Origin: an uncultured Balneola sp.
GTDB taxonomy: Bacteria > Bacteroidota > Rhodothermia > Balneolales > Balneolaceae
Length of the DNA: 64,000 nt
Direction: 5' to 3'
Assembly: GCA_913058495.1 (NCBI GenBank)
Contig: CAJXQC010000007.1
Coordinates: 62,001 to 126,000, forward strand
Numbering within the stretch: position 1 is the first letter of the stretch; every line of letters starts with the position of its first letter. This document shows, piece after piece, positions 8,137 to 18,105 of this stretch. The notes beneath the pieces were generated by a model. It saw only the letters and a program-made list of their open reading frames with translations. It was not told the origin of the DNA and did not search any database. The position numbers and the translations under genes are program-made.

Positions 8137-8901
8137 TCAACCATTAAGTTGATAAAGGGCTATACTCAAAGCAATCGCCGCATTCAGGCTTTCAACCGAG
8201 CGATTATCTTTTGAGGATGGAATCATAACCCGTTTTCTGCTTGATGTAATGAGACAGCTATCAACTCCATTGGCTTCATTCCCAACTATAAGAACCATTT
8301 TGTTGGTTGAATTCATTTTTGAAATCGGTACCGCTCCTTCATTTCCGTCTAGTAATAGAATCTGCCATCCTTCTTTCTCAAATACTTCAAGATCTTTATC
8401 TAAATTCGAATTTCTATAACTCAAAACCCCTGTAGCTCCTGCGGTGCTTCTTACCACTTTCGGGTGATGGAGATCTACTGAACCTTTGCCAATTAAAATC
8501 GAACTTGCTCCAAACCAGGCTGCAGTTCTCACAATAGTCCCCAAATTTCCCGGATCCTGAATTCTGTCTGTGGCAATGATCAATCCTTCTCTCTTTGATA
8601 GCTCTTCAACGGAAACTTCTTTCGGAATCTCACAAACGGCAAGGATTCCCTGGCTGTTTTCGGTATCAGTTACTTCAGCCAACGCTTTTGAATCCAACTC
8701 GTAAAAGCTGTTAGCTGTCAGCGGATAGCTAACAGCTTTTCCTTCTTCCACAAAAACTTCCCGAACATTCAGAATACCATTTTCTAAAACCTGCTCTACT
8801 GCCCGCTCCCCTTCAACAACAAACAGTCCCTCTTTTTCACGGTACTTTTTCTGCCCGAGTTTTCGAAGTAATTTTATTTGGTTATTAGATGCTGTCTTCA
8901 T
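8137..8901 (-). CDS. SpoU/TrmH family RNA 2'-O-ribose methyltransferase
   Basis: Uses S-adenosylmethionine to methylate a ribose 2'-OH in tRNA or rRNA. The N-terminal substrate-binding domain contains FVVEGERAVEQVLENG. The knotted SPOUT domain has the three usual motifs: DPGNLGTIVRTAAWFGA, LIVGNEANGVD, and MIPSSKDNRSVESLNAAIAL. Length (254) is typical. The start ATG at 8901-8899 is placed directly against a 59-bp heptanucleotide tandem repeat and has no room for a ribosome binding site. An upstream ATG (8975-8973) opens a 25-codon leader through the repeat whose TGA overlaps this ATG, so translational coupling is possible. The exact RNA target cannot be told. Confidence 0.92.
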   Translation of the reverse strand: MKTASNNQIKLLRKLGQKKYREKEGLFVVEGERAVEQVLENGILNVREVFVEEGKAVSYPLTANSFYELDSKALAEVTDTENSQGILAVCEIPKEVSVEELSKREGLIIATDRIQDPGNLGTIVRTAAWFGASSILIGKGSVDLHHPKVVRSTAGATGVLSYRNSNLDKDLEVFEKEGWQILLLDGNEGAVPISKMNSTNKMVLIVGNEANGVDSCLITSSRKRVMIPSSKDNRSVESLNAAIALSIALYQLNG

Positions 8902-8975
8902 GAGTTCTGAGTTCTGAGTTCTGAGTTCTGAGTTCTGAGTTCTGAGTTCTGAGTTCTGAGAAAAAGATACTTCAT
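8898..8975 (-). CDS. Possible leader peptide coupled to the TrmH-like gene
   Basis: ATG at 8975-8973 followed by four codons (MKYLF) and then the repeat, read as the 7-residue unit LRTQNSE twice and once incompletely, ending in TGA at 8900-8898. The TGA overlaps the gene's ATG as ATGA, a classical coupling arrangement. This is only a sequence observation; the peptide has no recognisable function and may not be made. Confidence 0.25.
   Translation of the reverse strand: MKYLFLRTQNSELRTQNSELRTQNS
8902..8960. repeat. Heptanucleotide tandem repeat (GAGTTCT, 8.4 copies) at the trmH-like start
   Basis: Eight perfect GAGTTCT units plus GAG, ending exactly at the start codon of the minus-strand methyltransferase gene. 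Since 7 is not a multiple of 3, each change of one unit shifts the frame between the upstream ATG (8975-8973) and the gene. No stop codon occurs in any frame of the repeat as read on the minus strand. Confidence 0.97.
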
Positions 8976-9026: not shown

Positions 9027-9034
9027 TATCTTTA
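9027..9034 (+). promoter_or_regulatory. Candidate Bacteroidota-type -7 box before the ALDH gene
   Basis: TATCTTTA matches TAnnTTTG at all but the last base and lies 34 bp upstream of the ATG at 9068. No well-spaced -33 TTG is visible, so this is weak. Confidence 0.3.
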
Positions 9035-9067: not shown

Positions 9068-10576
9068 ATGGATTTTTTAAAGAAACTGGGAATTGAGGGA
9101 GTAAACGCAGGTACTAGTACCGGGCGTGTTTATCTGGAAAGCAAAAATCAAATTACCAGTTACACTCCGGTTGATGGTAAAACGATCGCAAATGTGACCA
9201 CAACCACTAAAGAACAATATGAAGAGGTGGTTAATGCATCTCAGGAAGCATTTAAAGTTTGGAGAGAAATGCCGGCTCCGCAACGTGGAGAGATTGTTCG
9301 ACAGATCGGAGACAAGCTTCGTGAGTTTAAAGAGCCTTTGGGAAAACTGGTTACTTACGAAATGGGTAAGATCTATCAGGAAGGATTAGGTGAAGTTCAG
9401 GAAATGATCGACATCTGTGATTTTGCAGTTGGATTAAGTCGTCAGTTATACGGACTTACCATGCATAGTGAGCGACCAAATCACAGAATGTATGAGCAAT
9501 GGCACCCGATGGGAACAGTTGGAATCATTTCAGCTTTTAATTTTCCCGTAGCCGTTTGGAGCTGGAACGCTATGATCGCTGCGGTTTGTGGTGATACCAT
9601 GATCTGGAAAGGTTCTGAAAAAACTCCTCTTTGTGGAATTGCTATCCAAAAGATCGTAGCCAAAGTATTGAAAGAAAATGATCTACCGGAAGGAATCTTC
9701 TGCCTAGTTACCGGAGATAGAGAAGTTGGAGAATGGATGACAGAAGATGAGCGCATTCCGTTGATCTCTGCTACCGGCTCCATTCGAATGGGTAAAGAAG
9801 TGGCTAAAGTAGTTGGCGGGCGTTTAGGGAAAACCATCCTCGAACTTGGTGGCAACAACGCCATTATCGTTTCTGAAAATGCGGATATCGAAATGGCGAT
9901 CCGTGCAACTGTATTTGGTGCTGTTGGAACTTGTGGTCAGCGTTGTACTTCTACGCGAAGACTGATCATCCATGAATCTGTTTATGATCAGTTTAAAGAG
10001 CGCCTGTTGAGTATCTATGAAAATGTCAATATTGGAAATCCTCTGGAGCCGGATACTTTGGTTGGACCGATGATCGACCAGCTTGCAGTAGATGCAATGC
10101 AAAATGCCCTCAAACAAGTAGAGACAGAAGGCGGAAAAGTGATCTTTGGCGGTGAAGTTTTAGACAGAGACGGATTTTATGTTCGCCCGGCTATCGCTGA
10201 AGCAAAAAATGAATTCGAGATCGTTCAGGAAGAAACTTTTGCTCCTATCTTATATCTCATCAAATACAAAACAATTGATGAAGCCATGAGCTACCACAAT
10301 GGTGTGAAGCAAGGATTGAGTTCTGCGATGTTTACATTGAATATGCGTGAAGCTGAAAATTTCTTAAGTACACACGGTTCTGATTGCGGAATTGCCAATA
10401 TCAATATCGGTACCAGTGGTGCTGAAATTGGTGGTGCTTTTGGTGGCGAAAAAGAAACCGGTGGTGGACGTGAGTCAGGCTCAGATGCGTGGAAAGCATA
10501 TATGCGCCGACAAACCAATACCATCAACTGGAGCGAAGAACTGCCGCTTGCTCAGGGTATTTCTTTTGACGTTTAA
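9068..10576 (+). CDS. Aldehyde dehydrogenase, ALDH7 family (aminoadipate semialdehyde dehydrogenase-like)
   Basis: NAD(P)-dependent oxidation of an aldehyde to a carboxylate. The ALDH7A1/antiquitin subfamily resembles this protein most, with the N-terminal FLKKLGI, the block GTVGIISAFNFPVAVWSWN, and a C-terminal GGAFGGEKETGGGRESGSDAWK. Catalytic Cys293 is in GTCGQRCTSTRRL and general-base Glu259 is in LELGGNN. ALDH7 enzymes usually act on alpha-aminoadipate semialdehyde (as piperideine-6-carboxylate) in lysine breakdown. No other lysine-catabolism gene is adjacent, so the substrate is inferred from the family alone. It stands alone between a repeat-rich 670-bp gap and the methyltransferase gene. 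Confidence 0.9.
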   Translation: MDFLKKLGIEGVNAGTSTGRVYLESKNQITSYTPVDGKTIANVTTTTKEQYEEVVNASQEAFKVWREMPAPQRGEIVRQIGDKLREFKEPLGKLVTYEMGKIYQEGLGEVQEMIDICDFAVGLSRQLYGLTMHSERPNHRMYEQWHPMGTVGIISAFNFPVAVWSWNAMIAAVCGDTMIWKGSEKTPLCGIAIQKIVAKVLKENDLPEGIFCLVTGDREVGEWMTEDERIPLISATGSIRMGKEVAKVVGGRLGKTILELGGNNAIIVSENADIEMAIRATVFGAVGTCGQRCTSTRRLIIHESVYDQFKERLLSIYENVNIGNPLEPDTLVGPMIDQLAVDAMQNALKQVETEGGKVIFGGEVLDRDGFYVRPAIAEAKNEFEIVQEETFAPILYLIKYKTIDEAMSYHNGVKQGLSSAMFTLNMREAENFLSTHGSDCGIANINIGTSGAEIGGAFGGEKETGGGRESGSDAWKAYMRRQTNTINWSEELPLAQGISFDV

Positions 10577-17906: not shown

Positions 17907-17956
17907 TTGCTTTTCGATCTATCTCTATCTTTGGGGTCTGTCGAAACAACATTTTT

Positions 17957-18027
17957 TGCCCGGTCGTCTAATGGCAGGACAGCTGGTTTTGGTCCAGTCA
18001 GTGGGGGTTCGAGTCCTCCCCGGGCAA
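17957..18027 (+). tRNA. tRNA-Gln (anticodon TTG)
   Basis: A complete 71-nt cloverleaf: acceptor TGCCCGG/CCGGGCA, D-arm GTC...GAC, anticodon stem GCTGG/CCAGT with loop TTTTGGT (anticodon TTG, Gln), a 4-nt variable loop, and T-arm GGGGG-TTCGAGT-CCTCC with one G-T pair. The discriminator is A; no CCA is encoded. Confidence 0.95.
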
Positions 18028-18035
18028 CAAACACT

Positions 18036-18070
18036 CAATAAGATAACAACAGGAGCCGTCTTATTGTTTT
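18036..18070 (+). terminator. Possible terminator after tRNA-Gln
   Basis: Stem CAATAAGA/TCTTATTG with a 15-nt loop, then TTTT. The stem is AT-rich and weak. It sits between the tRNA and prs. Confidence 0.45.
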
Positions 18071-18105
18071 ATGTAATCCTGAAATTTTCAGTGCTAGCAG
18101 TTTAA

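Follow-up and report, generated by a model that had tools for sequence, protein, structure and literature searches.

Slippage-prone repeats are best known from host-adapted bacteria, where they mainly switch surface structures and restriction-modification genes. Heptanucleotide examples come from Haemophilus influenzae, where an increase in the number of 7-bp repeats at hmw1A and hmw2A leads to less protein (PMC10127715) and where a survey of repeats described heptamers with copy-dependent expression (PMC2651432). As cited in PMC4679880, AGAT repeats in the 5′ UTR of Moraxella catarrhalis uspA2 also give expression that depends on copy number. Heptamers of a different kind, the TAACTGA direct repeats, are found in Beggiatoaceae, Cyanobacteria and some Bacteroidetes, where they lie before start codons and mostly lack a ribosome binding site (MacGregor 2015, PMC4679880). 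The array described here lies before an RNA methyltransferase gene in a 64,000-nucleotide stretch of the genome of an uncultured Balneola sp. (the window).

The AGAACTC array and its gene

On the minus strand, the region reads ATGAAGTATCTTTTTCTC(AGAACTC)x8 ATGAAGACA, with eight perfect tandem AGAACTC units at 8902..8957 (GAGTTCT on the plus strand) and a partial unit, CTC, at 8958-8960. The array abuts the ATG (8899-8901) of a TrmH/SpoU-family gene. TRF placed the repeat at 8901-8960 with a period of 7, 8.6 copies and 100% matches, the top score within the window, which confirms the eight and a bit copies of GAGTTCT that the initial annotation saw ending at the methyltransferase start codon. 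With 8.6 perfect copies, the tract has the purity and the length, well above chance, of a simple-sequence contingency locus. In a 464-kb sample of the source Balneola genome there was no other perfect tandem array with a period of 4-15, a length of 20 nt or more and at least 2.8 copies, and the AGAACTC triple (a 21-mer) had no second locus in the 3.4 Mb assembly. The array is therefore beyond what chance would produce. Its unit, AGAACTC, places it outside the TAACTGA repeat class.

The gene (8137..8901, minus strand) encodes a protein of 254 aa, which Pfam and a PDB sequence match identify as a TrmH/SpoU-family RNA 2′-O-methyltransferase of the RlmP/MRM3-like type. Both SpoU_methylase (PF00588; 1.7e-29) and MRM3-like_sub_bind (PF22435; 2.7e-17) scored above the cut-off. 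The best match among solved structures in the PDB sequence search was 7qiu (3.4e-33; 253 of 254 residues aligned), and these three matches bear out the TrmH-family identity given initially. 7QIU is listed as B. subtilis RlmP (ysgA), which makes Gm2553 in the A-loop of 23S rRNA (PMC12123411). The Balneola protein combines a SpoU catalytic domain with an MRM3-like/L30e-type N-terminal domain, as expected of an RlmP/MRM3-like enzyme, and shares this two-domain layout with B. subtilis RlmP over a near full-length alignment. We take the gene product to be a predicted 23S A-loop 2′-O-methylase of the RlmP/MRM3-like type. The divergent neighbour (9068..10576, plus strand) encodes an L-piperidine-6-carboxylate dehydrogenase (NCBIfam NF050084, 830 bits, above cutoff).

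Array length and the methyltransferase leader

We searched 92 genomes of the family for three tandem AGAACTC units and found them in nine, five of which are Balneola. In all five Balneola genomes the array is at the methyltransferase ortholog and abuts its start codon, which is ATG in the source genome and GTG in the other four. There are 8 copies in the source genome, 8 in G001, 11 in G003, 12 in G007 and at least 22 in G006, a comparison between species with one genome each. Array length thus differs between Balneola species; copy number, which the initial annotation proposed to check in related strains, is not invariant across these species. In G006 (Balneola sp. HXMU1428-10; L195 7755-8015 and L009) the array is split by an N run, and it has at least 22 copies or is of mixed length. 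Short-read assemblies do not reveal arrays that exceed the read length. G002, G004 and G005, which belong to the genus but are more distant, lack the array. Three other Balneola genomes have imperfect AT-rich heptamers (AATTCAAAATTAAGAATT...) a few bases upstream of an ATG (L189 18087, L193 15593 and L197 11518).

There were no unit substitutions across the five Balneola arrays. This is only mildly surprising since, with about 6 variable sites per 110 flanking positions, about 3 would be expected in 56. The 110 nt from the dehydrogenase gene to the array are about 97% identical, compared with 52-71% identity at the four-fold sites of the methyltransferase gene, so the intergenic region is constrained. 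However, comparable identity (92-100%) is found in several of the window's other intergenic regions, so conservation between the two genes is not special by itself, and it was rejected as a sign of an RNA element. An Rfam search of the methyltransferase leader matched no family. The most conserved region, the intergenic interval 17907-18105 (96-100% identical between species), is accounted for by a tRNA at 17957-18027.

The sequence TATCTTT directly before the array (8963..8969, minus strand) is the methyltransferase gene's putative −7 box. A second TATCTTT (9027..9033, plus strand) is the putative −7 box of the dehydrogenase gene, which has TATCTTTA 34 nt 5′ of its ATG. In a sample of 162 gene leaders of the source genome, TA[TC]CTTT[AG] occurred 25-50 nt before the ATG 8 times against 0.8 expected, and none of 200 Markov sets reached 8. 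The plain Bacteroidota consensus TAnnTTTG showed no clear enrichment upstream of genes, whereas the narrower TA[TC]CTTT was enriched. At the methyltransferase gene the box is TATCTTTT, in which the last position is not A/G, and a −33 TTG is not clear. TATCTTT is retained directly before the array in all five array-bearing Balneola species. In the array-free relatives G004, G005, G002 and G012 the start is preceded at 22-43 nt by TACCTTT or TACCTT, and most close relatives that lack the array have TACCTT at the corresponding position, a pattern summarized as TAYCTT. We regard TATCTTT as a likely Bacteroidota-type −7 box of the methyltransferase gene, with the array most likely making up most of the 5′ leader between this box and the start codon.

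Given this anatomy, we tentatively favour a model in which the heptamer tract is the methyltransferase 5′ leader and slippage alters its length, shifting expression by degree while the frame stays constant. The array would form nearly the whole leader of the RlmP-like mRNA, from the −7 box to the start codon. Slipped-strand mispairing would add or remove whole units, as the pure units and the differing lengths in five species suggest, and each such change would lengthen or shorten a leader lacking a Shine-Dalgarno sequence by 7 nt, with a graded shift in expression. The start codon and the reading frame would be the same at any copy number because the upstream ATG considered below would lie outside the transcript. 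Folding predictions for the start region are nearly the same from 5 copies to 22 (mean unpaired 0.59-0.63) and reveal no way in which RNA structure would alter expression. A favourable A at −3 has been reported for Flavobacterium (PMC6847099); the Balneola repeat ends in C at −3, not in the A favoured there. Copy number may tune methyltransferase expression by degree, or do nothing.

Heptamer leaders elsewhere in the Balneolaceae

Lag-7 periodicity was scored in 59 methyltransferase orthologs across the family, with a score of at least 12 within 250 nt upstream counted as positive. Thirteen of the 59 were positive at lag 7, and none at lags 5, 6, 8 or 9. The positives outside Balneola are in Gracilimonas and Rhodohalobacter, together with two weaker cases. 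In Gracilimonas, a 31-nt heptamer element, CTGTATTCTGAATTCTGAGTTCTGTATTCTT, lies 4 nt before the methyltransferase ATG; it is recognisable in all species compared and reaches the score in two. Some Rhodohalobacter orthologs have (TTTTCAC)n directly before the start, and others have (AGAAGTC)n, (TTTCGGG)n or (GGTTTCT)n further upstream. Separately, L211 (G018) carries, at ∼1490-1700, mixed CAGAATT, CAGAATA and CAGGAGT units followed by a long (CCTGACT)n in the opposite orientation.

Among sampled control leaders, a lag-7 score of at least 12 was reached by 0/136 in the source genome, 7/166 in other Balneola (with the methyltransferase locus left out), 4/136 in Gracilimonas and 2/174 in Rhodohalobacter. 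For Rhodohalobacter, 4 of 14 orthologs compared with 2 of 174 control leaders gives a Fisher p of 2.7e-4, a value that reflects few independent events in related species and that is to be read with the caveat that heptamer-rich Rhodohalobacter genomes exist (G034). We prefer this subset as the main figure to that for the whole family (13/59 orthologs versus 13/612 leaders), in which species are not independent. In the Rhodohalobacter genome G201 the array is present though the dehydrogenase gene is not a neighbour, so the heptamer association follows the methyltransferase gene. The recurrent link between heptamers and an rRNA methyltransferase leader appears new; the kind of element is already known. 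That the A-loop methylase leader of the Balneolaceae is a recurrent contingency site, where heptamers arising independently in several genera would through slippage produce phase-variable ribosomes in free-living bacteria, is a broader and rather unlikely extension of these data.

AGAACTC arrays also occur away from the methyltransferase gene. A Gracilimonas Dabb-domain gene has the leader TACCTTTTCTC(AGAACTC)8 AGAATT-ATG, the same architecture as at the Balneola methyltransferase gene; three Gracilimonas species carry 8, 3 and 5 copies there (L155 1713-2089, L159 and L161). This second gene with the same architecture argues for graded tuning by leader length. The Dabb-domain gene is divergent from that for GTP cyclohydrolase I. 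In Gracilimonas mengyeensis (G309), nine AGAACTC arrays were found in the stretches examined; two of them are at contig ends and one is the Dabb-domain array, and most are close to a stop codon or between two convergent genes. These arrays (L150-L158) are scattered through the genome, and beside stop codons the sense strand reads GAGTTCT. Three IMG/VR contigs (L147, L148 and L149) have AGAACTC x9, x4 and x9 in near-identical flanks, a difference in length at one site between close relatives.

These stop-codon and convergent arrays lie where control through a leader is impossible, and they fit a neutral microsatellite, an explanation with a substantial chance of being correct, if short of an even one. 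A permissive leader would allow a chance duplication to seed the heptamer, and slippage would then maintain both its purity and its variability with no effect on the cell. According to PMC4679880, slippage in bacteria favours repeat units of seven bases, and the nearly constant folding predicted for the start region is also as expected of a neutral tract. Yet the Balneola array stands alone in 464 kb, and neutrality does not predict the Rhodohalobacter recurrence above the control rate unless this leader is unusually permissive. Even a neutral tract would make this locus a clear example of a Bacteroidota leader that can expand and has no Shine-Dalgarno sequence.

The array could also be a DNA or RNA binding site for a regulator, as suggested for the TAACTGA heptamers of Beggiatoaceae. 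The position directly before start codons and the lack of a ribosome binding site match that description (PMC4679880), and the Gracilimonas 31-nt element is conserved in its place before the ATG; in G010 it is nearly confined to the methyltransferase locus, which has 3 of its 4 matches in the genome. However, the repeat unit differs between genera, even in strand orientation, which is unexpected for one conserved binder and makes this explanation improbable.

The upstream reading frame and comparison with known systems

The initial annotation described an upstream ATG that reads through the repeat and stops at a TGA overlapping the methyltransferase ATG (as ATGA), and this is what the sequence contains. 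The ATG is at 8973-8975, 3 nt 5′ of TATCTTT, and its frame reads MKYLFLRTQNSEL... to the TGA at 8898-8900, giving a short ORF at 8898..8975 on the minus strand; in the sense direction the array has no internal stop. In an in silico series of copy numbers, the ATGA overlap was produced where n mod 3 = 2 (5, 8, 11), an in-frame fusion where n mod 3 = 0 (6, 9, 12) and a stop at +14 where n mod 3 = 1. The arithmetic of the original proposal, that one added copy or two lost would fuse the upstream frame to the gene and that the other phase would do neither, is thus correct. Of the natural complete arrays, three are in the overlap phase (8, 8 and 11 copies) and one is in the fusion phase (12 copies); in this last species, G007, no stop interrupts the frame within the array.

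If the array is the leader, the upstream ATG would therefore lie outside the transcript, and the short ORF probably begins upstream of the transcription start. A frame or coupling mechanism needs this ATG within the mRNA and is not supported. In G003 the upstream ATG is replaced by TTG while TATCTTT is retained, and the orthologs start at the same residue, with no N-terminal extension in array-free relatives. What stands of the proposed phase-variable switch is thus a length-variable tract (8, 8, 11, 12 and at least 22 copies) with both predicted phases in nature; the frame or coupling mechanism is unlikely. A switch in which the upstream ATG is translated and the copy number modulo 3 selects ATGA termination-reinitiation, an extended enzyme or neither is unlikely and among the least probable of the explanations, for all its exact arithmetic, open array and natural lengths in two phases, given an ATG just before a putative −7 box, the TTG in G003 and an extension without a counterpart in array-free orthologs.

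Were the preferred model of graded tuning by leader length true, it would point to heritable yet reversible variation in ribosome modification among environmental Balneolaceae, with heptamers of other sequence at this gene in sister genera. The closest known parallel is at hmw1A and hmw2A, where there is likewise a heptanucleotide array in the promoter or leader of one gene, with length changes by whole units and an effect that is graded rather than frame-based. The hmw genes encode a surface adhesin of a host-adapted pathogen, have a demonstrated effect on expression, and carry ∼10-60 copies at ∼70-105 bp from the gene. The Balneola array belongs to an rRNA methyltransferase gene of an environmental species, abuts the start codon and may affect expression. 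At uspA2, as it is cited in PMC4679880, a tandem repeat also lies between promoter and start codon, the position predicted for the array in Balneola; that repeat is a tetranucleotide, the gene encodes a surface protein and the effect was measured. The TAACTGA repeats resemble the Balneola array in being heptamers directly before starts, with long arrays in a few Bacteroidetes. They differ in their unit and in their spread, since a genome can hold up to 169 sets in front of unrelated genes, whereas in Balneola there is one locus per genome, which is conserved across species, and heptamers recur at that one gene.
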